Assembly (NCBI GenBank): GCA_947446855.1
Contig: CANFIH010000007.1
Coordinates: 1-56,207, forward strand
DNA from: Burkholderiales bacterium
GTDB lineage: Bacteria; Pseudomonadota; Gammaproteobacteria; Burkholderiales; Burkholderiaceae_C
Length of the DNA stretch: 56,207 bases
Direction: 5' to 3'
Shown here: positions 41,563 to 56,207 of the stretch, piece after piece
How positions within the stretch are numbered: position 1 is the first letter of the stretch
How the letters are laid out: every line of letters begins with the position of its first letter
Program-made: the position numbers and the translations under genes
The notes under the pieces: generated by a model
The model's database searches: none
What the model was told of the DNA's origin: nothing
What the model saw: the letters and a program-made list of their open reading frames with translations, nothing else

Positions 41563-42702
41563 ATGGCCCACATGGAACACGCGTTACGCACCATTACGGA
41601 CCGCATCGCAGCGGCCCGATCAGACAACACCCCCCTGCGCTTGCGCGGTGGCGGCAGCAAAGACTTTTTAGGGGGTTCCCGGGGTGAACTGCTGGACACC
41701 CGCAGCCTGAATGGTGTCATCAGCTATGAACCGACGGAATTGGTAGTGACGGTCGGTGCCGGCACGCCTCTTACGGATTTGGAAGCCCTGCTGGCTGAAC
41801 AAGGCCAGTGCCTGGCCTTTGAGCCCCCCCATTACCCCTGGTCTGCTGCAAACACATCCCCCGCCACCGTGGGCGGCATGGTGGCCGCTGGTCTGGCCGG
41901 CCCGTCGCGTGCCAGCGTGGGCGGAGTACGTGACTATGTGCTGGGTGTCAAACTGATCAACGGTCTGGGCCAGCACCTCACTTTTGGCGGGCAGGTCATG
42001 AAGAACGTGGCCGGTTACGACGTCTCGCGCCTGATGGTGGGCGCCCGCGGTACCTTGGGCCTGTTGACCGAGATTTCGCTCAAGGTGTTGCCGCTGGCGC
42101 CGGCTGAGGCCACGCTGTGCTTTGCGCTGGCGCAGCACGAGGCGCTGGAACACCTGCACCGCTGGGGCGGCGAGCCTTTGCCGCTGAATGCCAGTTGCTG
42201 GGTGATGGATGGCAATAAGCCCAGCTTGTTCATACGCCTGCGCGGCGCGGTCGCGGCCGTGGAAGCCGCCTGCCAGCGCATGCTGACCGAGGTGCCGGGT
42301 CTGCGTATGGACAACGCGCAGGCCGGACCCGACTGGAGCCTGTGCCGCAACCAACAACTGCCTTTCTTCACCGATCCAGCGCAAAACGGCGATGTGCTGT
42401 GGCGCCTGAGCGTGCCGCAAACCGCCCCCGTGCTGCATCTGCCCGGCCACCCTCTGGTGGAGTGGCATGGTGGTCTGCGCTGGCTATGGGCGCCTACCAG
42501 CGCCGCTGCGGAGTTGCAAGCCGTCGCCCTCGCAGCCGGTGGCAGCGCCACGCTGTTTGTGGATCCGGCTGCCACCCAGGGCGACACGGCCAGTGGCGCC
42601 AATGCCCTGCGCAGCGACAGCCCTACCCTGAACGCCATCAGCCAACGCCTCAAAGCCAGCTTTGACCCGCAGGGCATCTTCAACCCCGGACTCGTCTCCT
42701 GA
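41563..42702 (+). CDS. glcE: Glycolate oxidase FAD-binding subunit GlcE
   Basis: A 379-residue FAD-linked protein with the PCMH-type FAD domain: LRLRGGGSKDFLGG, TVGAGTPLTDLEALL, FEPPHYPWSAANTSPATVGGMVAAGLAGPSR (FAD pyrophosphate site) and NVAGYDVSRLMVGARGTLG. It is the GlcE subunit of the membrane-associated glycolate dehydrogenase that passes electrons to the respiratory chain. glcF follows with a one-base stop/start overlap (TGATG). The third subunit gene, glcD, normally just upstream, is not in this window. Confidence 0.93.
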   Translation: MAHMEHALRTITDRIAAARSDNTPLRLRGGGSKDFLGGSRGELLDTRSLNGVISYEPTELVVTVGAGTPLTDLEALLAEQGQCLAFEPPHYPWSAANTSPATVGGMVAAGLAGPSRASVGGVRDYVLGVKLINGLGQHLTFGGQVMKNVAGYDVSRLMVGARGTLGLLTEISLKVLPLAPAEATLCFALAQHEALEHLHRWGGEPLPLNASCWVMDGNKPSLFIRLRGAVAAVEAACQRMLTEVPGLRMDNAQAGPDWSLCRNQQLPFFTDPAQNGDVLWRLSVPQTAPVLHLPGHPLVEWHGGLRWLWAPTSAAAELQAVALAAGGSATLFVDPAATQGDTASGANALRSDSPTLNAISQRLKASFDPQGIFNPGLVS

Positions 42703-43943
42703 TGCAAACCAATCTCGCGCCCGAGTACCAGAACACCCCCGACGGCCTGGCCGCCGAAGCCATCCTGCGCAAGTGCGTGCACTGCGGCTTTTGCACCGCC
42801 ACCTGCCCGACCTACCAATTGCTGGGTGATGAACTCGACGGCCCGCGCGGCCGTATCTATTTGATGAAGCAGGTGCTGGAGGGCCAGCAGCCCACACGCG
42901 CCACCCAAATGCACCTGGACCGCTGCCTGACCTGCCGCAACTGCGAAAGCACCTGCCCCAGCGGTGTGGATTACGGCCATCTGGTCGACATCGGCCGCAA
43001 ACTGGTGGATGCCAAGGTGCCGCGCCCGGTGGGTGAAAAGGCCCTGCGCTGGGCCTTGAAGGAAGGCCTGCCATCGCCGCTGTTTGCTCCGGCCATGAAG
43101 CTCGGTCAGCTCATGCGCCCGTTGCTGCCCGCCAGCTTGCAAGCCAAGGTGCCCGCCAAGCAAGAAGCCGGTGCCTGGCCGACGCGCCGCCACGCCCGCA
43201 AGGTGCTGATGCTGGCCGGATGTGCCCAGCCCAGCATGAGCCCCAATATTGATGCCGCCACCGCCCGCGTGCTGGACGCCGCTGGCATCCAGAGCCTGGT
43301 GGTGCCCAAGTCCGGCTGCTGCGGCGCGGTCAAGTTCCACCTGAATGACCAGGATGGCGGCAAGGAACAGATGCGCGCCAATATCGACGCCTGGTGGCCG
43401 TTGATCGCTCCCGGCAGTGGCAGCGGCGTGGAAGCGCTGGTGATGAATGCCTCGGGCTGTGGTGTCACTGTCAAGGAATACGGCCACATCCTGCAAGACG
43501 ACCCGGCCTACGCGGCCAAAGCCGCACGCGTAAGCGAGCTGACGCGCGATCTGAGCGAACTGCTGCCGGATTTGGTGCCGGTATTGCGGCCCCGGCTCCA
43601 GGGTGTCCCCAAGGCGGCTCTGGTATTTCATCCCCCCTGCACCCTGCAGCACGGGCAAAAACTGCGTGGTGGTGTGGAGCAGCATCTGTCGGCGTTGGGT
43701 TTTGCGGTGCGCCTGGCGACCAACGAGTCGCACCTGTGCTGTGGCTCGGCCGGAACCTACTCGGTGCTGAACCCGGAGCTGGCTTACCAACTGCGTGACC
43801 GCAAATTGCAAAACCTGCAGCCCGCAGAGGCTGAGGTCATCATCAGCGCCAATATCGGCTGTATCACCCATCTGCAAAGCGGCACGCCAAACCCGGTGCG
43901 GCATTGGGTCGAAGTGCTGGACGCGGCGCTCAGCGCCGAATAA
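42702..43943 (+). CDS. glcF: Glycolate oxidase iron-sulfur subunit GlcF
   Basis: A 413-residue protein with two 4Fe-4S binding motifs, CVHCGFCTATCP near residue 26 and CLTCRNCESTCP near residue 76, and two C-terminal CCG domains (KSGCCGAVKFHL and LCCGSAGTYSVL). It accepts electrons from the GlcD/GlcE flavins. Its start overlaps the glcE stop. Length and motif order are normal. Confidence 0.95.
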   Translation: MQTNLAPEYQNTPDGLAAEAILRKCVHCGFCTATCPTYQLLGDELDGPRGRIYLMKQVLEGQQPTRATQMHLDRCLTCRNCESTCPSGVDYGHLVDIGRKLVDAKVPRPVGEKALRWALKEGLPSPLFAPAMKLGQLMRPLLPASLQAKVPAKQEAGAWPTRRHARKVLMLAGCAQPSMSPNIDAATARVLDAAGIQSLVVPKSGCCGAVKFHLNDQDGGKEQMRANIDAWWPLIAPGSGSGVEALVMNASGCGVTVKEYGHILQDDPAYAAKAARVSELTRDLSELLPDLVPVLRPRLQGVPKAALVFHPPCTLQHGQKLRGGVEQHLSALGFAVRLATNESHLCCGSAGTYSVLNPELAYQLRDRKLQNLQPAEAEVIISANIGCITHLQSGTPNPVRHWVEVLDAALSAE

Positions 43944-44152: not shown

Positions 44153-45046
44153 ATGAACACTGCTGTAGATCAAAAAACGGGCATTAAAGCCACCGAAAAA
44201 TCATCCGTACAGGTGCTGGCGGCGGATACGCTCGTGTATTTGACGCTGGCGATTCTGGTGTGGGGGACTTGGCGCCTGAGTCAGATGGAGCTGTTCAAGT
44301 CGGGCGATGACACGGGTTACTGGATCGGCGTGGTCGGTTCCGTGATGATGCTGTTCCTGCTGAGCTACCCGCTGCGCAAATACGTTCACTTTGCACACAA
44401 GTGGGGCAGCATCAAGGTGTGGTTCTGGTTGCACATCATTCTGGGTGTGCTGGGCCCCCTGCTCATCCTGCTGCACTCCAATTTCAATACCCATTCCATG
44501 AATGCCGCTGTGGCCCTCTACAGCATGGTGGTGGTTGCCGGCAGCGGTGTGGCCGGACGCTTCATTTTCCAGCGCGTGAACCGCGGCCTGCATGGTGAGC
44601 AGACCGATTTGCAGACCCTGATGCGCAATGCCGGGCTGGACAAGGAAGACGCCCGCTCCCGCCTGGCCTTTGCGCCCAGCGTGGAGCAGCGCCTCAAAGA
44701 CTTTGAGCAGCGCGAGCAGGAATCCCAGCCAGGCTGGCCCACCAATTTCCGCGCGGTCTTCTGGCTGCCGGTGCTGCAGCTTCTGACCTATCGCAAGTGC
44801 GCGGCTGAGCTGGAAGCCTTGCTGCCCAAGATGGCCGCCAGCCAGAACTGGAGCGCGGCAGACCTGCAGCGCCGCCGTACGCGGGCCAAGAAGATGGTGG
44901 ACCGTTTTTTGAATTCGGTGGTCGGGGTCTCCCAGTTTTCCGCTTACTCCTTTCTCTTCTCGCTCTGGCATGTAGCCCACGTACCCTTTGTGTATGTGCT
45001 GGTCATGACAGCCCTGGTGCACATCTACGCGGTCCACGCGTACTGA
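44153..45046 (+). CDS. Cytochrome-b-like integral membrane protein
   Basis: A 297-residue protein with five predicted transmembrane helices (about residues 22-42, 62-80, 95-117, 120-142 and 262-296) and a long charged cytoplasmic loop between helices 4 and 5. Histidines sit inside or at the ends of helices: WLHIILG, LLILLHSN, LWHVAHVPF and ALVHIYAVHAY. Pairs spaced this way bind b-hemes in diheme cytochrome b561 and ferric-reductase-like proteins. It is the first gene of an operon with two multiheme cytochromes c, so it probably passes electrons from quinol to periplasmic hemes. Heme binding is inferred; no named family can be fixed. Confidence 0.7.
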   Translation: MNTAVDQKTGIKATEKSSVQVLAADTLVYLTLAILVWGTWRLSQMELFKSGDDTGYWIGVVGSVMMLFLLSYPLRKYVHFAHKWGSIKVWFWLHIILGVLGPLLILLHSNFNTHSMNAAVALYSMVVVAGSGVAGRFIFQRVNRGLHGEQTDLQTLMRNAGLDKEDARSRLAFAPSVEQRLKDFEQREQESQPGWPTNFRAVFWLPVLQLLTYRKCAAELEALLPKMAASQNWSAADLQRRRTRAKKMVDRFLNSVVGVSQFSAYSFLFSLWHVAHVPFVYVLVMTALVHIYAVHAY

Positions 45047-45059
45047 TCTGGCCGCACCC

Positions 45060-46895
45060 ATGATTGGCCAAGCCCTTTTCCTTCGCCTGGTGCAGCACAT
45101 CCTGCGCCTAGGCTGCTGGCTGGGTATGGCCCTGTTGCTGTCGTCTGCAGCACAGGCACAGGGCATCGAATCCATCATGGCGCCGGGCAAGCTGATGCAA
45201 GGGCATGCCAAGTACGAAGACGACTGCAAACAATGCCACGTCAAGCTCGACCGCAAGGCCCAAGACGGCCTGTGCATGGACTGCCACAAGCCCGTGGGCG
45301 CGGATATGCGCGCCAAGACCGGCTTCCACGGTCGCCTGGAGCAGCCCGTGGTGTGCAAGAACTGCCACAGCGACCACAAGGGCCGCGACCTCAAAAGCAC
45401 CGAGTTTGACGAGAAAAAGTTCGATCACAACCACAAGACCGACTACACGCTCAAGGGCAAGCACGAAAAAGTGGCTTGCGACAAATGCCACGTGGCCGGC
45501 AAGAAGCACCGCGAAGCCTCGCAGGACTGCAACACCTGCCACGTCAAGGATGACAAGCACAAAGGCAAGCTGGGCACCAAGTGCGCCGACTGCCATACCG
45601 AGGTGGATTGGAAAGAGGCCAAGTTCGACCACGAGACCACCAAGTTCCCGCTCACGGGCAAGCACAACGACGTCAAATGCACCGATTGCCACAAGGACAA
45701 CGTCTACAAGGACACGCCCAAGAACTGCTACGCCTGCCACCGCAAGATCGACGACCAGAAGGGCCACAAGGGTCTGTATGGCGAGAAGTGTGAGACCTGC
45801 CACGGCACCAAGGCCTGGAAGCCCTCTACCTTCAACCACGACAACGACACCAAATACGTGCTCAAGGGCAAGCACCGCAGCACCGCCTGCAAGGAATGCC
45901 ACACCGGCAACCTGTACCTGAAGGAAAAGCTGGGCCAGGAGTGCATTACCTGCCACAAGAAGGACGACAAGCACAAGACTTCGCTGGGCACCAATTGCGA
46001 AGCCTGCCACACCGAGAAGAACTGGAAAGAGGTGGCCAAGTTTGACCACGACAAGACCAAGTTCGCGCTGGTGGGCAAGCACGTCAAGGCCGAATGCAAG
46101 GCCTGCCACAAGAGCCTGGTCTACAACGAGGCGCCCAAAGAATGCATCGGCTGCCACGAGAAAGACGACAAGCACAAGACCAATCTGGGCAAGGAGTGCG
46201 GCGACTGCCACAACGCGCAGGATTGGAAGACCACCGAAGGCCGCTTCAAGCACGACAAGACCAAGTTCCAGCTACGCAACGCCCACGCCGCACCCACTGT
46301 GAAATGCGTGGCTTGCCATAAAGATTTGACCAGCTACCGCAACACGCCCTTGCTGTGCATCAGCTGCCACAAGAAAGACGACAAGCACGAGACCCAGCTG
46401 GGCGACAAGTGCGAGTCCTGCCACAACGACAAGGCCTGGAAGGGCACCAGCTTCAACCACGGCAAATCGCGCTTCCCCTTGACCGGCCGCCACATCATTG
46501 CCGAGTGCAAGAAGTGCCACGAAACATTCCGTTACAAAGACGCCCCCCGCGATTGCTACACCTGCCATAAAAAGGAAGACAAGCACAAGCAAGTGTTCGG
46601 CGTGAAATGCGAGTCCTGCCACAACACCCGGGCCTGGACCACGTGGTCTTTCAACCACGACACCCAGACCAAATACCGCCTGGAAAGCTCCCACATCAAG
46701 GTGGCGTGTGAAGGCTGTCACAAACAAGTGGCACCCCCGGGCAAGGATGCAGCGCCATTAGGCAGCGCCTGTGTTTCGTGCCACCGCAAGGACGATGTGC
46801 ACAACGGCGGCTTCGGCCCCCGCTGTGACCAGTGCCACCAGGTGGAGAGTTGGAAAAAAGTAAAGACACGCGTAGGGCAGGTGCCAGACAAATGA
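45060..46895 (+). CDS. 24-heme c-type cytochrome built of triheme units
   Basis: A 611-residue exported protein: signal peptide ending SSAAQAQ, then 24 CXXCH heme-attachment motifs. They fall into eight groups of three. The last seven groups repeat every 67-70 residues, with first hemes at codons starting 45477, 45678, 45888, 46095, 46305, 46506 and 46707. Each unit has F-[DN]-H, G-[KR]-H and D-[DE]-K-H histidines that can serve as distal ligands, giving bis-His hemes, as in cytochrome c7 and the triheme-domain polymer GSU1996 of Geobacter. The protein is very rich in Lys, Asp and His. It lies 13 bases after the cytochrome-b-like gene and should be periplasmic, as a heme wire toward the outer membrane. 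Heme count is observed; role is inferred. Confidence 0.93.
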   Translation: MIGQALFLRLVQHILRLGCWLGMALLLSSAAQAQGIESIMAPGKLMQGHAKYEDDCKQCHVKLDRKAQDGLCMDCHKPVGADMRAKTGFHGRLEQPVVCKNCHSDHKGRDLKSTEFDEKKFDHNHKTDYTLKGKHEKVACDKCHVAGKKHREASQDCNTCHVKDDKHKGKLGTKCADCHTEVDWKEAKFDHETTKFPLTGKHNDVKCTDCHKDNVYKDTPKNCYACHRKIDDQKGHKGLYGEKCETCHGTKAWKPSTFNHDNDTKYVLKGKHRSTACKECHTGNLYLKEKLGQECITCHKKDDKHKTSLGTNCEACHTEKNWKEVAKFDHDKTKFALVGKHVKAECKACHKSLVYNEAPKECIGCHEKDDKHKTNLGKECGDCHNAQDWKTTEGRFKHDKTKFQLRNAHAAPTVKCVACHKDLTSYRNTPLLCISCHKKDDKHETQLGDKCESCHNDKAWKGTSFNHGKSRFPLTGRHIIAECKKCHETFRYKDAPRDCYTCHKKEDKHKQVFGVKCESCHNTRAWTTWSFNHDTQTKYRLESSHIKVACEGCHKQVAPPGKDAAPLGSACVSCHRKDDVHNGGFGPRCDQCHQVESWKKVKTRVGQVPDK

Positions 46896-46935: not shown

Positions 46936-49900
46936 ATGGCCAAGCTGATTAACCTGCTGGCGCATCTGCGCGGGCGCATCGTGCGGCAAAGCTTTAAGGG
47001 CCTGTGGGCCTTGCTGGCATTTGTGCTGTTGCAACTCGGCTCCACGCAGTTGGCCCAGGCGCAATTGCCCGGCGCAGACTTCGATCACGCCGGCACCGGC
47101 TATGTGCTCAACGCACAGCACCAGAATGTGCGCTGCGAAACCTGCCACACCAAGGGCGTGTTTAAGGGCACGCCCAAGGATTGCGTGTCTTGCCACGGTT
47201 GGAATAACCCGCGCGCCACCTTCTCGGTCATGCCGACCAGCCATATCCCCACCGGCAATGCGTCTTGCGAAAGCTGCCACCAGGCCAATATGGCGCAGTT
47301 TGCGGACGCCACCCGCACCTTTAACCACACCGCAGTGGTATCCCTTACCTGTGTGAACTGCCACAGTTCCCAACACCCGCATCCCAACGTCCGGACCAAT
47401 CCCGTCGATGCGACGCACCAGGCACCTGTGGCCAAGAACCAGGCCTGTGACCAATGCCACACCACCATCGAGTTTGCCGGACCCAAGGTCCCGACCAACC
47501 ACATTCCTACGGCAGCAGTGGCTTGTACCAATTGCCACGTCAATGCCAACTATTCCGCGATGCCCACCATCACGGCCATTCACGCCAATGCGCAATCCAG
47601 CAGCAATAACTGCCAGCAGTGCCACAGCGCTGCAGGCGTGTCGGCTTATGCCATGGCGACCATGGTGCCGCCGCTGGTGGGACCAATAAGTGGCCACGTG
47701 GCCATGAACGGACAAAGTTGCGAAACCTGCCACGTCGGAGGCGGCAGCAGTCTGCAGTTGCCGGTGGTGGATGGCGCCAAATTCAGTGGTTCGAGTTTCA
47801 ACCACCAAGGCATCACGGGTGGATGCGCTTCCTGCCACGCCGCAAACGCGGTGGCCGGTTTCGGTATCAACAACATCATTCAGATGCCCTCAATGAGCGG
47901 GTTCGGCCCCACCGCGCACATACCGACAACGGCTGCCTGCGAGGCCTGCCACAGGAGCGCGCCTTCCGGCCTGATGCCCAGCAACGCGATCAACACGGTG
48001 CCCGGATCAGGCTTTATGTCACCCCCGCCCACCAAGGCGGATATTCATGCAAATGTCACCGCGAGCTGCTCCAGTTGCCACGGAAGCGACATGTCTTGGC
48101 TGGGTGTAGACCAGTATCCGCGTACATCGAGCTTTACTACGATTGACGCCAACTACATTGGCTTCCAGTCGCGACCCAATACCGGCGGCGGGTACTCCAT
48201 CCAGGATCCTTTGCACCCCGCGTCGGGTGAGTGTTCCACTTGCCACAGTTTGGCAACCGGATTCAGGGCCCCAACCTTGCCAGGCAACCACATACCCGTT
48301 TCGGTCGCAGCAGCAAGCTCCTGCGGTCTTTGCCATAAAAGCGGTGATTTCACGACGATGCCAGCCATCACAGACATCCACGCCAATGTGAAGTCTGGTT
48401 TGTCGTGTGCCGATTGCCACAGCACGGTCAATGCGGCAAAGTACCCCATGTCACCCGCCTTGGTGGCCCCCCCGGTTGGTCACATCGCCCAAGGCGGCTT
48501 GGGCTGCGACAGCTGCCACATGGGTAGCAATTCCAGCATGCAACCTGGTGCTGTGGTGAACGGTGCGAACTTCGCCAACTCCGCTTATGTGCACAGCGGC
48601 GCTACCACCGGTTGCGCCAGTTGCCACGGCTCGGGCGCCGCGACCATTTTTGGCGTGGTGCCCAAGAACATCGACAACCTCAGCCCCGTGCACATGCCGG
48701 TGACCGGCGTGTCCACCTGCGAGACCTGCCACAGCACCAGTGGGCTGACCACACAAATACCGCTGACGGGTGCTACTGCTGGCACGGCAAGTTTTGCCGG
48801 AGCCCAGTTCACCCACTCCGGTATTACCGCCACTTGCGCAAGTTGCCACGGCCAGAACATCGCGTCTGGCAGCTTTGCGGGCAACCCCAACATCGTGGTC
48901 ATGCCGCAGTCCAGTGCCACAGGGCCGAACTCGCACATTCCCACAACCGCCGGTTGCGAGACTTGCCACACCGTCATCCCGTCGGGGCTGATCGCTGCAA
49001 ACGCGTCGGCCGGAACCGGCTTCAAAACCAGTCTGCCCACCAAGGCCAACATTCACGCCAATACAACGACAGGTTGCTCTGCCTGCCATGAAAGCGGCAC
49101 CTGGATCGGTGTGGATCAGTATGCGAGGACGGCCACGTCACCCTACGCGGGCGGTACGTATTTCGGTTTCCAGGTGCGGCCTACGCTCAACGGTGGGCTC
49201 AATGCGATACAAGACCCGACGCCCCACCCTGCAACCGGTGAGTGCTCCAACTGCCACGTCAGTTACTTGGGTGGCTTTGCTGCGCCCGGTCTGCCGGGCG
49301 GTCACATTCCCGTCAAATCAGGCTGCGCTGCCTGCCACAAGGATCCCAGCTATTCCGTGATGCCGGCCATTGCCGATATCCATGCCAACACCACACTCAC
49401 CGTGTGCGGTAGCTGCCATACGAATACGACCACCTATCCAATGACACCCCCCATCGTGGTGCCGTCGGCCGGACACATTGATCAAGGTTCTTTGGATTGC
49501 CAAGCGTGCCACGTTGGACCCAACTCCAGCCTGAACTTGCCGGTTGCGAATGGTGCAAGTTTTGCCAAATCCGCCTATGTACATAGCAGTGCAACCACGG
49601 GCTGCAACACCTGCCATGGAACCGGAACCGGCGCGGCCAGCCTCAGCGTTGCGCCCAAAAATATTTCCAACCTGTCACCCAGGCACCTGCCAATCACGGG
49701 GGGCTCTGCGTGCGAAAGTTGCCATAAGGCCAGTCCCGGTACGGACCAAGTGCCGTTGACGGGTGCCCTAGGCGGCGCACCATCATTTGCGGGTGCGATC
49801 TTCAACCACAGCTACACCACGGCGAGCTGCGCGAGCTGCCACGGACAAGGAATAAGCGGCGCAAGCTTTGCCGGAAGCCCCAACATCGTGGTGATGCCTT

Positions 49901-52900
49901 CGTCGGCTGCACCGGGCCTTACGTCACACATTCCAAGCAATGCTTCTTGCGAAGCCTGCCACGGCAGTGCCTACCCGTCGGGTGAATACGTGGTGACCGG
50001 GACCAGGGCATCGCCCAGTGGTTTCCTGGCACTCAAGCCATCCCCGGCTGACATACACGCGAACACCAGTACGGCTTGTTCGACTTGCCATGAAAACGGT
50101 ACCTGGATCGGGATGACGGCATACCCGCGTACATCGGCGGACTATGTGCGCGGCGTGTCCGGCGCATATACCGGCTTTCAGGTCCGCCCCACCGCGTCTG
50201 GTGGACTGAACTCGGTCAAAGACACCACCCCCCACCCCGCCGCTGGCGAGTGCTCCAACTGCCACGCCAGCTACGCAGGCGGCTTTGTCGGAGCCGTTCA
50301 GCCCAACGGGCATATTCCGACCACTACCGGGGCTTGTGAGGCCTGTCACAAAGACCCAAGCTATTCAGCCATGCCGTCATTGACCGACATCCACGCCAAT
50401 GTCAATGTGACCGTGTGTGCTGCGTGTCACGCCAATAACAGCCCCTACACGATGACACCTGCGATCAAGGTACCTCCGCCGCGTCACATCGCCATGGGCG
50501 GCCTGGATTGCAAGGATTGCCACGTGGGGGCCAACTCCAGCATGCTGTCCGCGACCGTTATCAATGGTGCGAACTTTGCCAACTCCGCCTATGTGCACAG
50601 CAGCTCAGCCACCAGTTGCGCCGACTGCCACGGTGCCGGGGCCAGTACGGCCAACCTCTATGGCGTCACCCCCAAAAATATTGCCAGCCTGACGCCCGGC
50701 CATTTGTCCGTGACGGTTGCGCCTGCCTGCGAGGCCTGTCACGCCGCCCCGGGTAGCACCCAGGTGCCACTGACGGGAGCCATGGGCGGCACGCCGACTT
50801 TTGCCGGCGCCACCTTCAATCACAACGCCACCAACGCCAGTTGCGCCACCTGCCAGGGGCAGGGAGTGAGCGGCGCAAACTGTGCCGGCAACCCCAACAT
50901 TCTGGTGATGCCGCAATCGGGCGTTCCGAGCTTGAGTTCCCACATTCCCACGGCGGCATCCTGTGATGCCTGCCACGGTGGCGCCCCGACGGGCGTGTTT
51001 GATTTGGGTGCGACCAAGAGCATTGGCGCAAGCGACTTTCAGCTGCCGATACGCAGACCCAGCAAAGACACGTTGCACAACAACGTGAGCGTCAGTTGCT
51101 CGAGTTGCCACGAGGCCGGCATGTCCTGGCTGGGCGTGGACTTGTATTCGCGCACGACGATCTTCCCAAGTCTGTCCTATGTGGGTTTCCAGACCCGACC
51201 CAATTTGAGCGGCGCAGCCTACTCCCTGGCGGACTCTGCGCACCCAGTGGCGGGCGAGTGCTCCAGTTGCCACAATGTGGCGGGCGGATTTGGTGCGCCA
51301 GGCAAGCCCTCGGGGCATATTCCGATCACAACGGCGGCAGATGCCAATTGCTCCCTGTGCCACAAGAGTCCCGACTACTCCGTGATGCCCGGTACGGCTG
51401 ATATCCATAAATATGCATCTCTCACGGTGTGCGCGCAGTGTCACACCGCTGCAGCTGCGGTCAACTATCCAATGACGCCCGCCATCGTGGTACCGCCAGC
51501 CGGCCACATCGACCAGGGAACTGCGGGTTGCGAGGTCTGCCACGTTGGAAGTGGCTCGAGCATGGCTGCCACACCCGTGCCGGATGGCGCGCACTTCTCC
51601 GGCTCGCTGTTCAACCACGTCGGAATCAACACGACATGCGCCAGTTGCCACGGCTCCGGCGTCAGCGCTTCCGGTTTCTATGGCATGGTGCCCAAGGCAC
51701 TGTCCAATCTGTCGCCTAGCCATATGCCAGCCTCAGACGCCTGCGAAACTTGCCACGTCAACAGCAAGCCAACGGGTTTGGTGCCGTCCGCTGGCATGAA
51801 GACTTTTGCCGGCGCGCAGTTCAGCCATGCCGGTATCACCACAGGTTGCGACACCTGCCACGGCCCCAGCATCGTCCCCGGCAGCTTTGCCGGCAAGCCC
51901 AATATCGTGGTGATGCCTGCGACCAGCCCATTCGGCGCGACCGCGCATATTCCATCCTCCACAACCTGCGAAAGCTGCCATCTGGGCAGCACGCCTACCG
52001 GTCTGGTGGCAGGCAGCGCCTCCAAGCTGACAGGCCCCGGTACCGGCTTCCAGTCGCCCGCACCCACCTCGTCGATGACACACGCCAACGTGACAGGAGG
52101 TTGTGCAAGCTGCCACGGGGATGGTCAGTCCTGGATCGGCGTCGGTCTCTACCCCAGCGTGCCAGCGGGCTACGTGGCGCATGCAAGCTATACCGGCTTC
52201 CAGACCCGTCCGGGTGTCGGCGGTCTTTACGCGGTGAATGACCCCACGCACCCCGGTGCCGGAATCGATTGCTCGCAATGCCACAGCAGCTTTGCCTCCT
52301 TCGGCCCGCCCACCATGCCCGCGGGTCACATTCCTGTGGCCCCCACGGCCCAATGCGGCAACTGCCACACCAGCAACTTTGTGGACGCGCCCACGGTGAC
52401 CAACATCCATGCCTTTGCGCAGTCCACCACCGCCAACTGTGTGCAGTGCCACAGCGTAGCCAGCGCGGCGCAATTTACGGTGAGAACGCCCATCGTGACG
52501 CCTGACGGCAATCACATTCCCATGGGCTCGCTGAGTTGTGAGAGTTGCCACATGGGGGCCCAGTCCAGCATCAGGGGCGCAGCAGTCAAGACGGGCGACA
52601 AGTTCGCCGGCTCGCTGTTCAACCACTCCGGTATCGCCACGGGCTGCAACGCTTGCCACGGCGTAACGGTGGATGCCACGACCTTCCCCGGCATCCCCAA
52701 TATCAAGGCCATTTCGTATGACATCGCGCCTGTTCATATGCGGGTGCCCAGTGCTATCGGCTGCGAGGTGTGCCACACCAACAGCGTGCCCGTCGGACAA
52801 GTGCCTGCTGCAGGCATGAAAACCTTTGCCGGTGCCAGCTTTACGCACAGCGGCATCACCACTGATTGCGCCAAGTGCCACGGCCCCGGCATTACGCCTG

Positions 52901-55900
52901 CCAGTTTCCTGGGTAGCCCCAATATCGTGGTCATGCCCGCTACGGTGTCGGGTGGTCACATACCGTCCTCCACCGTGTGCGAGAGCTGCCACCTGGGCAG
53001 CACGCCATCGGCCTTGATTGCCGGCAGCGCCACCAAGACCACAGGCCCGGGCACCGGCTTCAAGGTGGCCCTGCCGGCTTCGAGCACCATCCACGCAAAC
53101 TCCGACACTACGAGTTGCAATGTCTGCCATGAGAGCGGCAAGGACTGGATCAGCGTAAATGTGTACACGCGTGGGCCGTCGAACACGCCGTCGCCAGGAG
53201 TGCTGTTTACCGGATTCCAGACGCGGCCCGTTGCGGGTGGCGGCACCTACTCGGTTACCGACAGCACCCACGTGGGTGTGGGTGTGGGGGATTGTTCGAA
53301 CTGCCACACCGGCTACACCGGTTTCGGTCCGCCGACTGCGCCTGCCAACCATATTCCCTATGTGACAGGCACCAGCTGCGGCAGTTGCCACACGGTGGCG
53401 GACTTCGCGGTCATGCCAACCTACGCCAACATCCACAAGTACGCGCAGTCGGCCACCACCAACTGCGTGCAGTGCCACAGCACCGCCAATGCGGACATCT
53501 ACAACCAGTTGGCGGGTATGGGCGGCAAACTGGTGAAGCCTGCAACCAACCACATCGCCATGGGCTCACTGAGTTGCGAGTCCTGCCACGTGGACAGCTT
53601 GACGGGTCTCACCAGCTCCAACACCAGCTTTGCGGGTGGCAAATACAGCCACAGTGGCGTGACGACCGGCTGCAACGCCTGCCACGTCAGTGGAACCGGC
53701 CCCTTCCAGGGCACGCTCTCCATTGTGGTGATGCCGCCAACCACCGGGCCGGCAGCGTCGACCCAGCACTTGCCCACGTCCACCACCTGTGAAACCTGCC
53801 ATTTGGGCAGCACGCCATCGACCTTGCTTTCCGCCGTTGCCACCAACACGGCCGCGACCAGCAGCTTCGCAACGCCAGTGCCCACCGCCGCCATGAACCA
53901 TACCGGCGTGAGCGCGTCTTGCAATACCTGCCACGAGGCCGGTGGCTCCAGCACCAGCGATGTGTGGATGAATATGGCGGCCTACCCGATTACGACGGCT
54001 GCGCCTTATAAGGGATTCCAGACGCGTCCTTCCACGGCCGGAACATTCCGGGTGGCGGATGCCGCGCATCCGGCAGCGGGTGACTGCTCGGCCTGCCACA
54101 GCAGCTTTACCGATTTCTCATCCACGGCGAAACCGGCAAACCACATTCCAACGGCCAGCACCGCAACCTGCCAGAACTGCCACACGACAAGTGACTATTC
54201 GCTGATGCCGTCCTTGACCAACATTCACCTGTACGCACCTTCGACCACAAACAACTGTGTGCAATGCCATAGCGCGACCAATGCCGACACCTACAACCAA
54301 TTGGCGGGCATGGCCGGCAAGCTGATCAAGCCGCCAGCAACGCACGTGCCCATGGGTGCGTTGGGTTGCGAGAGCTGCCACGTCGGCAGTGGTGGCGTTG
54401 CCTCCAGTATCAATGTCGCTTTGCCGGTGAGAAACGGAGCCAACTTCGCTAACTCCGCCTACAGCCACAGTGGTGTGACCAGTGGTTGCGCCAACTGCCA
54501 CGGCGACGGCGTGACTGCGCTGAGCTTTGCCGGCCAAACGCCTAAACCCATCCCTGCGGGCCACGTGCCCAATGCGGGCGGTGTGGACTGTGTGGCCTGC
54601 CACACCACGGTGCCTGGCGTGCTGATTGCCTACACCGGTGCGGTGGCGGGCTCGGTCAACACCTTTGAAACCACCAAGTACAGCCACAGCGGAATTACCG
54701 CGAGTTGCCAGACCTGCCACGCTGGTGGCACCAGCTATGTTGGTATCACGAACATGGTGGTGCTGAGTGCATTCAGCACCCATATTCCAACCACCACCAA
54801 ACCGGATTGCGTGTCCTGCCATTTGGGCAGCACCCCCACGGCGCTGACCACCTGGATCAAGGGTGCTGTGTCGAAAGTTGCACCCAACACCGGATTCAAG
54901 CTGCCGATACCCACCGGCGCCATGATCCACACGAATGTGACTTCCGGTTGCGTCAGCTGCCATGAGGCCGGCATGTCCTGGCTTGAGGTGGACACCAGCT
55001 TCTACACACGCACGCCGACCGTTAAAACGGTGGGTGCCAATTACCTGGGCTTCAATACGCGCCCCTTCTTGAATGGCACCGGATACTCGATCAATGATGG
55101 CAACCACCCCACAGGCACGACGGACTGCTCCAACTGCCACGGCAGTACCTCGAGCTTCTCGGTGTCTGCGGTGCCGGCCAACCACATTCCCTATTCGGCC
55201 ACCGCAACCTGCGCTAATTGCCACACCCAAATCGACCTGGTCGGTGGAACTGCGGACTTCTCGAAAGTCCCGACGGTGGCCAACATCCACGCGTACGCAC
55301 CATCAACGACAGTCAATTGCGCGCAGTGCCACAGTGCGGCCAATGCCGCGAAATACAACGCAGGCGGTGTGGTGATCAAGTCTCCGGACAGCATCGCCAA
55401 GCACGTGCCCTACGGCACGGTGGCCTGCGAGGTTTGCCACGTGGGCCTCAGTCCGGTGATCGACACCTCCAAATTCGCCGGAGGCAAGTACAGCCACACC
55501 GGTGTCACCACCGGATGTGCCACCTGCCACGGCAACGGGCTGCTCGCGACCAACTTCACCGGTATCTCCAACCTGGTGGCGATTCCGGCCACTGCGGCCA
55601 TGGGTGCGACAGCGCACATTCCCTACACGGCTGCGTGCGAGGCCTGCCATGCCGGCTCCACGCCGAGCGCATTGCTGGCCGTCACAGGCACACCGGCTGC
55701 CGTGAGCGGTTTCCGGTTGCCTGCACCCACGGGCACCATGATCCACACGGGTATCAGCAGTGGCTGCAACGCCTGCCATGACAGCAATTACGTCTGGAAG
55801 GGTGTGGACCTTTATCCCATCAACCCCAGCACAGTCACCGCCAATGGCAGTTACAAGGGCTTCCAGACACGTCCTCTGGCGGCACCGACCACCACCGCGC

Positions 55901-56207
55901 TGGGCAAGTTCGGCATCACCGACAGCGCGCATCCGCTGACCGGCGATTGCTCACAATGCCATGGCAGTACCACCGCGTTCACCGGGGTGGACAAGCCGGC
56001 AGGCCATATGCCCACGACGACGCCGACCTGCATCACCTGCCACTCACCAACCGACTATTCCGTGGCCGGTTTGGGGACTTTGACTGCGCTGCATACCGGC
56101 ATCACCTACCAAACCACAATCAAGGCAGCCACGGCTGCCACCATGGCGGCCAAGCTGTGTTCCAAATGCCATACGGTGGGAACCGGTGGTACCAGCGGAA
56201 CGGCACC
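46936..56207 (+). CDS. Giant multiheme c-type cytochrome, at least 3,090 residues and 81 hemes (partial at 3' end)
   Basis: The frame opens at ATG 46936, preceded by GAGGGAG and 40 bases after the 24-heme gene, and is still open at the window end. Codon register was checked at points from 47134 to 56158. A signal peptide (about residues 1-42: LWALLAFVLLQLGSTQLAQA) is followed by an F-D-H-x-G and Y-x-L-x3-H stretch like the units of the preceding cytochrome. Then come 81 CXXCH motifs and one CXXCQ, about one per 38 residues. From 48232 they form repeats of about 337 residues. Between hemes the sequence is rich in Ser, Thr, Gly and Ala with recurrent H-I-P, D-I-H-A-N, C-H-V-G and P-N-I-V-V-M-P motifs; the His of these are candidate distal ligands. 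It is low in charge, unlike its neighbour, fitting a surface or extracellular conductor. The C-terminus, and any anchor, is outside the window. Confidence 0.95.
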   Translation, partial: MAKLINLLAHLRGRIVRQSFKGLWALLAFVLLQLGSTQLAQAQLPGADFDHAGTGYVLNAQHQNVRCETCHTKGVFKGTPKDCVSCHGWNNPRATFSVMPTSHIPTGNASCESCHQANMAQFADATRTFNHTAVVSLTCVNCHSSQHPHPNVRTNPVDATHQAPVAKNQACDQCHTTIEFAGPKVPTNHIPTAAVACTNCHVNANYSAMPTITAIHANAQSSSNNCQQCHSAAGVSAYAMATMVPPLVGPISGHVAMNGQSCETCHVGGGSSLQLPVVDGAKFSGSSFNHQGITGGCASCHAANAVAGFGINNIIQMPSMSGFGPTAHIPTTAACEACHRSAPSGLMPSNAINTVPGSGFMSPPPTKADIHANVTASCSSCHGSDMSWLGVDQYPRTSSFTTIDANYIGFQSRPNTGGGYSIQDPLHPASGECSTCHSLATGFRAPTLPGNHIPVSVAAASSCGLCHKSGDFTTMPAITDIHANVKSGLSCADCHSTVNAAKYPMSPALVAPPVGHIAQGGLGCDSCHMGSNSSMQPGAVVNGANFANSAYVHSGATTGCASCHGSGAATIFGVVPKNIDNLSPVHMPVTGVSTCETCHSTSGLTTQIPLTGATAGTASFAGAQFTHSGITATCASCHGQNIASGSFAGNPNIVVMPQSSATGPNSHIPTTAGCETCHTVIPSGLIAANASAGTGFKTSLPTKANIHANTTTGCSACHESGTWIGVDQYARTATSPYAGGTYFGFQVRPTLNGGLNAIQDPTPHPATGECSNCHVSYLGGFAAPGLPGGHIPVKSGCAACHKDPSYSVMPAIADIHANTTLTVCGSCHTNTTTYPMTPPIVVPSAGHIDQGSLDCQACHVGPNSSLNLPVANGASFAKSAYVHSSATTGCNTCHGTGTGAASLSVAPKNISNLSPRHLPITGGSACESCHKASPGTDQVPLTGALGGAPSFAGAIFNHSYTTASCASCHGQGISGASFAGSPNIVVMPSSAAPGLTSHIPSNASCEACHGSAYPSGEYVVTGTRASPSGFLALKPSPADIHANTSTACSTCHENGTWIGMTAYPRTSADYVRGVSGAYTGFQVRPTASGGLNSVKDTTPHPAAGECSNCHASYAGGFVGAVQPNGHIPTTTGACEACHKDPSYSAMPSLTDIHANVNVTVCAACHANNSPYTMTPAIKVPPPRHIAMGGLDCKDCHVGANSSMLSATVINGANFANSAYVHSSSATSCADCHGAGASTANLYGVTPKNIASLTPGHLSVTVAPACEACHAAPGSTQVPLTGAMGGTPTFAGATFNHNATNASCATCQGQGVSGANCAGNPNILVMPQSGVPSLSSHIPTAASCDACHGGAPTGVFDLGATKSIGASDFQLPIRRPSKDTLHNNVSVSCSSCHEAGMSWLGVDLYSRTTIFPSLSYVGFQTRPNLSGAAYSLADSAHPVAGECSSCHNVAGGFGAPGKPSGHIPITTAADANCSLCHKSPDYSVMPGTADIHKYASLTVCAQCHTAAAAVNYPMTPAIVVPPAGHIDQGTAGCEVCHVGSGSSMAATPVPDGAHFSGSLFNHVGINTTCASCHGSGVSASGFYGMVPKALSNLSPSHMPASDACETCHVNSKPTGLVPSAGMKTFAGAQFSHAGITTGCDTCHGPSIVPGSFAGKPNIVVMPATSPFGATAHIPSSTTCESCHLGSTPTGLVAGSASKLTGPGTGFQSPAPTSSMTHANVTGGCASCHGDGQSWIGVGLYPSVPAGYVAHASYTGFQTRPGVGGLYAVNDPTHPGAGIDCSQCHSSFASFGPPTMPAGHIPVAPTAQCGNCHTSNFVDAPTVTNIHAFAQSTTANCVQCHSVASAAQFTVRTPIVTPDGNHIPMGSLSCESCHMGAQSSIRGAAVKTGDKFAGSLFNHSGIATGCNACHGVTVDATTFPGIPNIKAISYDIAPVHMRVPSAIGCEVCHTNSVPVGQVPAAGMKTFAGASFTHSGITTDCAKCHGPGITPASFLGSPNIVVMPATVSGGHIPSSTVCESCHLGSTPSALIAGSATKTTGPGTGFKVALPASSTIHANSDTTSCNVCHESGKDWISVNVYTRGPSNTPSPGVLFTGFQTRPVAGGGTYSVTDSTHVGVGVGDCSNCHTGYTGFGPPTAPANHIPYVTGTSCGSCHTVADFAVMPTYANIHKYAQSATTNCVQCHSTANADIYNQLAGMGGKLVKPATNHIAMGSLSCESCHVDSLTGLTSSNTSFAGGKYSHSGVTTGCNACHVSGTGPFQGTLSIVVMPPTTGPAASTQHLPTSTTCETCHLGSTPSTLLSAVATNTAATSSFATPVPTAAMNHTGVSASCNTCHEAGGSSTSDVWMNMAAYPITTAAPYKGFQTRPSTAGTFRVADAAHPAAGDCSACHSSFTDFSSTAKPANHIPTASTATCQNCHTTSDYSLMPSLTNIHLYAPSTTNNCVQCHSATNADTYNQLAGMAGKLIKPPATHVPMGALGCESCHVGSGGVASSINVALPVRNGANFANSAYSHSGVTSGCANCHGDGVTALSFAGQTPKPIPAGHVPNAGGVDCVACHTTVPGVLIAYTGAVAGSVNTFETTKYSHSGITASCQTCHAGGTSYVGITNMVVLSAFSTHIPTTTKPDCVSCHLGSTPTALTTWIKGAVSKVAPNTGFKLPIPTGAMIHTNVTSGCVSCHEAGMSWLEVDTSFYTRTPTVKTVGANYLGFNTRPFLNGTGYSINDGNHPTGTTDCSNCHGSTSSFSVSAVPANHIPYSATATCANCHTQIDLVGGTADFSKVPTVANIHAYAPSTTVNCAQCHSAANAAKYNAGGVVIKSPDSIAKHVPYGTVACEVCHVGLSPVIDTSKFAGGKYSHTGVTTGCATCHGNGLLATNFTGISNLVAIPATAAMGATAHIPYTAACEACHAGSTPSALLAVTGTPAAVSGFRLPAPTGTMIHTGISSGCNACHDSNYVWKGVDLYPINPSTVTANGSYKGFQTRPLAAPTTTALGKFGITDSAHPLTGDCSQCHGSTTAFTGVDKPAGHMPTTTPTCITCHSPTDYSVAGLGTLTALHTGITYQTTIKAATAATMAAKLCSKCHTVGTGGTSGTA
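48232..55947 (+). repeat. Tandem nine-heme repeats within the giant cytochrome gene
   Basis: Blocks measured from one C-S-x-C-H heme to the next begin at 48232, 49243, 50251, 51259, 52270, 53293, 54085 and 55126, with the next at 55948. Lengths are 337, 336, 336, 337, 341, 264, 347 and 274 codons. Full blocks hold nine heme sites; the 264 and 274 codon blocks hold seven and lack the same two-heme segment (hemes six and seven of the block). Each block has a GFQxRP segment just before the next boundary and H-P-x-x-G-[ED]-C-S at the boundary. Hemes 1-11 (47134-48080) form a divergent lead-in. Confidence 0.88.

Follow-up and report, generated by a model that had tools for sequence, protein, structure and literature searches.

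A PCC3-type gene cluster in a Burkholderiales genome encoding a multiheme cytochrome with 88–89 candidate heme sites

The window analysed here, a stretch of 56,207 nucleotides without N, is the entire contig C7 (CANFIH010000007.1) of a Burkholderiales genome (GCA_947446855.1); other genomes, contigs and loci are denoted by G, C and L numbers. Towards its end, all on the forward strand, lie glcE- and glcF-like genes (41563–43943; Pfam FAD_binding_4 and CCG/Fer4), a gene for a 297-aa protein (44153–45046), a gene for a 611-aa cytochrome with 24 CXXCH motifs (45060–46895), and the first 3,090 codons of a giant multiheme cytochrome gene (46936–56207). The 297-aa protein carries two WX3HX13H motifs (residues 90 and 272) and SGVAG at residue 131, gave no match against Pfam and NCBIfam, and was assigned by motifs and gene order as the inner-membrane protein (IMP) of a PCC3 cluster, probably a di-heme b-type, quinone-reactive one; in relatives, the IMP gene adjoins that of the 24-heme protein. 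Heme spacings in the latter run at about 16/17-18-33 residues, repeated, giving a triheme periodicity, and 24 of 24 CXXCH are invariant in a 32-sequence alignment of its homologues; its location is predicted to be periplasmic. Against PDB sequences it had no match at E 0.01, and its AlphaFold model (pLDDT 64, pTM 0.28) was unusable. The glcE- and glcF-like genes, which we place outside the conduit, have both counterparts as neighbours at L074, L073 and L088 (G053), and glcF at L055; they were not found in the stretch of G061 that was read.

The frame of the giant is uninterrupted from an ATG at 46936 to 56205, and contains 81 CXXCH, one CXXCQ, and neither CX3CH nor CX4CH; 1,000 shuffles of the protein with composition kept gave a mean of 0.46 CXXCH and a maximum of 3. 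An initial annotation had reported the same open frame, and its hand count of the motifs proved exact on recount. The ribosome-binding site that it noted corresponds to GAGGGAG preceding the ATG, and its signal peptide to a Sec-like N-terminus as judged by eye (MAKLINLL...LAQAQLPG), with a probable 42-aa peptide (46936–47061) cleaved between AQA and QL. Pfam matches comprised Cytochrome_C7, the MtrC/MtrF II–IV domain and Cytochrom_c3_2, and the composition is rich in small residues (A 12.5, T 11.1, S 10.8, G 10.7%; 45% together). The gene had also been described as cut by the window edge; as the window is the whole of C7, which ends at 56207, the truncation comes from the assembly.

Extension past 56207, proposed for a fuller count, therefore stops with the contig, and the missing end was sought in the rest of the genome, the terminal part of the homologue L012 serving as query. 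This search found contig C84, where, reading the minus strand from the contig end (L052 16920–16087), a 277-aa multiheme cytochrome continues to a stop codon with 7 CXXCH and one CX4CH. C7 and C84 share no exact overlap of 10–399 bases at their ends, so that the join rests on homology to L012, heme spacing and gene order. In seven homologues that span the junction the next CXXCH follows after 51–67 residues, versus 43 read here, indicating that 8–24 aa are missing between the contigs; the homologues have no CXXCH in this segment, and none is expected in the giant. The order IMP, 24-heme protein, giant, porin is common to relatives (five of the same genus: L053, L055, L057, L073 and L074), which supports C7 adjoining C84, and the link is thus supported by homology and gene order rather than by reads. 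The CX4CH occupies a position at which G053, G061, G031 and G122 have CXXCH by spacing, and is therefore probably a real heme site. Both parts together hold 88 CXXCH, or 89 sites counting CX4CH, plus the one CXXCQ, in keeping with the expectation that the true total would exceed 81. Joined, they would make one gene of about 3,375–3,390 codons; the two parts amount to about 336 kDa of protein, to which full loading would add about 54 kDa of heme, near 390 kDa in all.

Directly after the cytochrome end, C84 carries a gene for an 839-aa putative porin, with TPR and LamB matches below their cut-offs (LamB E = 0.0098), for which 21 of 103 genus genomes gave a match (E ≤ 0.001), in some cases a weak one. 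Beyond it follow DUF2844, DUF3443, and ccmA, ccmB, ccmC and ccmE, all four ccm genes over NCBIfam cut-offs (L052:8684–11516, minus strand), a few genes downstream of the porin; the same set was seen at L055/L091, L089, L092 and L065. By genome, ccmABCE lies behind the PCC3 cluster in G031, G053 and G122, plus the more distant G099. A ccm match was absent from about 13 kb behind DUF3443 in G061 and from the sequence examined at L107/L153, L151, L136 and L144, and the G146 stretch stops at DUF2844. With ccm genes close by in several genomes, the cluster may itself provide for the load of maturing such a number of hemes.

The giant is built of repeated units, delimited by heme spacing, alignment and tree. 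An N-terminal region with 11 hemes (46936–48156) begins with spacings of 16-28-28-32-26-29, which are equal within 1 residue in L012, G146, G061, G031 and G040, and within 3 in G053. It is followed by super-repeats of the 9-heme type, u2 (48157–49167), u3 (49168–50175), u4 (50176–51183), u5 (51184–52194) and u6 (52195–53217), by the 7-heme unit u7 (53218–54009; spacing and tree), and by u8 (54010–55050, 9 hemes) and u9 (55051–55872, 7 hemes), which in the tree have one counterpart each in relatives. The C-terminal part starts with 3 hemes in the window (55873–56207), continues on C84, and is marked by spacings of 23-24-23-30, with 32 for 30 in G122. Across the window and its relatives, units with 9 hemes measure 329–356 aa and units with 7 hemes 258–300 aa.

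For analysis of ligands and unit history, 52 super-repeats from the window and relatives were aligned and placed in a tree, with u8 as reference unit. With 9 hemes, u8 contains exactly 18 histidines, of which nine belong to motifs and nine are free. At seven of the nine hemes the motif histidine is present in 51–52 of 52 units and the free histidine likewise in 51–52, and hemes 5 and 6 with their free histidines are absent in 16–17 of 52, matching the 17 seven-heme units. Read from the alignment, this pairing of motif and free histidines is a bis-histidine ligation pattern. The CXXCQ (residue 1303, 50842–50856) is the seventh site of u4; aligned L012 shows CXXCH at this place, and the seventh motif histidine is present in 51 of 52 aligned units, so CXXCQ would be either a private loss or a base error. 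An unpaired-looking cysteine lies 13 residues past it and is not present in L012.

In the tree, u8 (support 81/98) and u9 (100/96) each form a group across L012, G122, G053, G146, G061, G031 and G040, the last being a partial sequence. Middle units in several cases group by lineage (G053 u3–u6, 91/92; G122 u2–u5, 81/80; window/L012 u2–u4, 96/81), window u5–u7 pair one to one with L012 u5–u7, and those of G146, G061, G031 and G040 are interspersed with one another; the deep forks of the tree have weak support. Some, not all, middle units are thus lineage-specific expansions, and the last two units before the C-terminal part are shared. These groupings point to a length that changes as whole units in the middle of the protein are gained or lost, at different times in different lineages.

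Such repetition raises the question of an assembly artefact, in which repeats were falsely expanded or a decayed gene stayed open by chance. The genome is a MAG (86.93% complete, 6.49% contamination, 334 contigs, 4.48 Mb), the gene breaks at a contig end, one site reads CXXCQ, and a homologous gene in G122 is split over two frames, all of which would fit that explanation. It is nevertheless largely refuted, and we hold it very improbable. The direct-repeat copies within the giant (ungapped stretches of 69–144 nt) are just 61–75% alike to their reference copies, which rules out false expansion of one unit, and L012, from a separately named MAG, is equally long with 2,086 of 3,058 aligned residues identical (68%); these two results also speak against the collapsed or expanded repeat raised beforehand. 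In genomes of the same genus, complete homologues occur on unbroken contigs, one of them in the single-contig genome G061, and neither 3,090 codons without a stop nor the near-invariant free-histidine pairing at seven hemes suits a decayed gene. The reading of the frame as a genuine giant multiheme cytochrome, encoded among genes of extracellular electron transfer, is supported.

The cluster was compared with PCC3 as given by He et al. 2017 (PMC5566968), where a porin, an extracellular multiheme cytochrome (MHC), a periplasmic MHC and an IMP are described, the first examples being from iron oxidisers, with five transmembrane helices, two WX3HX13H and SGXXG in the IMP, a periplasmic median of 21 hemes, and repeats, 22–39 aa per heme and up to 85 hemes. 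Here, the IMP agrees in size (about 300 aa) and in both motifs, the large periplasmic protein, encoded beside it and periplasmic by prediction, has 24 CXXCH within about 21–27, and the giant is huge, repetitive and rich in A, T, S and G, with 81 CXXCH in 3,090 aa giving 38.1 aa per heme, the upper edge of the range. By motifs, order and heme counts the cluster is well supported as a PCC3, an already-described type. It differs from PCC3 as published in the 88–89 hemes of the giant, and in having ccmABCE downstream; the main text of PMC5566968 contains neither "ccm" nor "maturation".

The published maximum of 85 hemes is for Agromonas oligotrophica S58, for which 86 is given in PMC7096707, and a single chain of similar count, the 86-heme cytochrome of Desulfuromonas acetexigens, is reported as not in a complex (PMC12133095). 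Gene neighbourhoods with more than 100 heme motifs are reported in PMC11475568, the supplements of which may hold single proteins above 86; in the literature found, mostly open-access sources, there was no single protein above 86 hemes. The giant therefore stands at or slightly above the maximum printed in these sources, and is not the maximum of its family. The claim that its count ranks among the highest holds in this sense against the printed 85–86, but relatives reach 90 and 133 CXXCH.

With MtrCAB the cluster shares its porin-cytochrome logic, MtrC/OmcA and MtrA having ten hemes each (PMC6344600), and the MtrC/MtrF II–IV domain matches nine stretches of the giant. Membership of the MtrC/OmcA family was rejected, at 118.1 bits versus a TIGR03507 cut-off of 209.3. 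A profile of the super-repeat searched against the PDB matched 3ov0 best (E = 4e-8), followed by reaction-centre cytochromes and nitrite reductases; with this modest E-value and the mixed further matches, the likeness to 3ov0 is partly motif-driven. The entries 3ov0 and 3oue are Geobacter poly-c7 cytochromes of the GSU1996 type; poly-c7 cytochromes are chains of c7-like modules, with far fewer hemes than the giant. The profile also matched 8e5g (E = 8e-4), presumably an archaeal filament cytochrome, and no entry named OmcS, OmcE or OmcZ was among the 30 PDB matches listed. For OmcS, OmcE, OmcZ and the archaeal filaments, long-range extracellular conduction has likewise been proposed, but they are polymers of small chains as opposed to one covalent chain here. 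An AlphaFold model of a 347-aa unit (52 alignment rows) reached pLDDT 75.4 and pTM 0.63; Foldseek gave no match to it, a result of little weight for low-structure cytochromes.

Heme counts were surveyed in overlapping sets of relatives: 120 for the IMP, 103 genus genomes for the porin, and 370 class, 300 order and 397 phylum genomes for the 24-heme protein. Frames matching the 24-heme protein of the window at more than 250 bits were included, weaker matches and G755 being left out, genes were called complete when they ran stop to stop within the fetched stretch, and the multiheme frame that came next downstream, at most 900 bases away, was taken as extracellular by its position. The resulting table had 72 rows, 70 with a complete periplasmic gene (L012 and L056, with incomplete ones, were excluded) and 21 without a complete pair. 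With L062 and L080, the same gene, counted once, the matches listed hold 69 distinct complete periplasmic genes, with 24 (35 genes), 21 (31), 27 (2) and 18 (1) CXXCH, related species counted separately and L126, an 819-aa frame, counted with 21; mostly they repeat the 16/17-18-33 spacing of a triheme module. Counts of 21, 24 and 27 are also reported for Gallionellaceae (PMC10734462). At the 51 loci among the matches listed with both genes complete, the next cytochrome downstream has 11 to 133 CXXCH; L073 (68) and L143 (17) are included, though their genes look split over frames.

Complete homologues of the same genus have 56 (G031), 72 (G061), 78 (G146) and 90 (G053) CXXCH. In G122:C16 the homologue (L073:3165–11301, minus strand) occupies two frames with 4 and 68 CXXCH, through a frameshift that is either real or a sequencing error. 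The largest PCC3-type cytochrome among the matches listed is a single 4,086-codon frame in G339:C17 (L107:2777–15034, plus strand), with 133 CXXCH, 10 CX4CH and 1 CX3CH, or 144 different motif histidines, neighboured by a 24-heme gene and by matches to the IMP (32%) and to the porin (24%). Its repeat copies are 60–88% alike in DNA, which argues against false expansion. A search of the 36 genomes of the G339 family with its 24-heme protein at E 1e-40 returned no further carrier, so the count of 133 rests on one genome. Five multiheme frames with 37, 73, 33, 23 and 21 CXXCH were seen at a single locus in G183:C126 (L099:787–18729, minus strand), and among plasmid records the sole match was a distant one, a cytochrome c3 family protein at 22% identity on an Emticicia oligotrophica plasmid (NC_018749.1:85432–88248).

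We consider it likely that the giant serves a PCC3 porin-cytochrome conduit as its extracellular cytochrome, the conduit having a modular outer chain and a periplasmic part of set size. The path of electrons between quinone pool and exterior would lead through the IMP, then along the 24-heme periplasmic cytochrome, read as eight triheme modules, and across a porin-held junction to an outer chain of about 88–89 bis-histidine hemes reaching away from the cell, where the partner may be solid or large (iron mineral, humic matter or another cell). This chain would consist of the N-terminal part, a variable run of 7- or 9-heme super-repeats and the conserved C-terminal part, its length evolving by gain and loss of whole units and the periplasmic part keeping to a small number of sizes. 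The gene order (across the two contigs, by homology), motif counts, repeat plan, ligand pairing and lineage-specific groups of units are read from sequence, and for the giant we infer from there on its loading with hemes, its place outside the cell, conduction and the partner; a demonstration of activity for any PCC3 was not among the literature found. Why one chain carries dozens of hemes, and whether it is fully loaded, is stated to be open in a review (PMC7096707).

A different use of so long a chain would be storage: the giant would mainly hold charge, at about 90 electrons per chain, and thereby let respiration continue as partners come and go, conduction being secondary. A capacitor role has been suggested for PCC3 (PMC10734462), and storage would tolerate a downstream CXXCH number that varies twelvefold beside a nearly constant inner part among the matches listed. 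A reservoir by itself leaves the shared last two units and the C-terminal part unexplained, and richness in small residues would be in keeping with an extended chain. Both are weak arguments; we regard storage as the main role as unlikely. A bolder reading is a two-part cable, in which a periplasmic ruler advances in three-heme steps (18, 21, 24, 27) fixed by periplasm width, an outer wire grows by 7–9-heme units beside a conserved membrane-proximal base, and the wire reaches at least 133 CXXCH hemes (144 with CX3–4CH), the longest single-chain heme wire known; we give these statements, taken together, an even chance. Natural length variants (11 to 133 CXXCH among the matches listed) on a near-constant inner part would make length, conductivity and reach comparable, and the unit boundaries indicate where the giant can be cut.

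The direction of transfer, outward (reduction of iron(III), manganese or humic matter) or inward (oxidation of iron(II) or minerals), is not readable from sequence, and we put the outward reading at slightly less than even. In favour of outward transfer, PMC6344600 reports that in a humic bog the anoxic layer is enriched in large EET cytochromes, and the origin of the first PCC3 in iron oxidisers speaks against it. In Sideroxydans ES-1, growth on Fe(II) lowers both PCC3 clusters (PMC8788666), and Slit_1448, the extracellular cytochrome, has 0 in all eight columns of a proteome table (PMC12016527), data which argue against dissolved Fe(II) oxidation by PCC3 there; in Sideroxydans CL21 both PCC3 copies are expressed above the mean (PMC12442390). 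The genome of the giant itself encodes RuBisCO, a further point against outward transfer, and two MtrA/MtoA-type decahemes over cut-off, one on C16 (L161:478–8950, minus strand) in a 12-kb stretch with flanking frames of 10 and 9 CXXCH, and one on C37 (L162:4914–5912, plus strand). The C16 stretch with its two flanking frames may resemble Mtr reductive loci, which would favour the outward direction. Decahemes and RuBisCO together fit an iron-cycling bacterium, whichever way the electrons flow. On C13 of this genome, a frame of 982 aa has 11 CXXCH and matches a decaheme weakly (L160:5357–8302, minus strand), and its composition looks out-of-frame.
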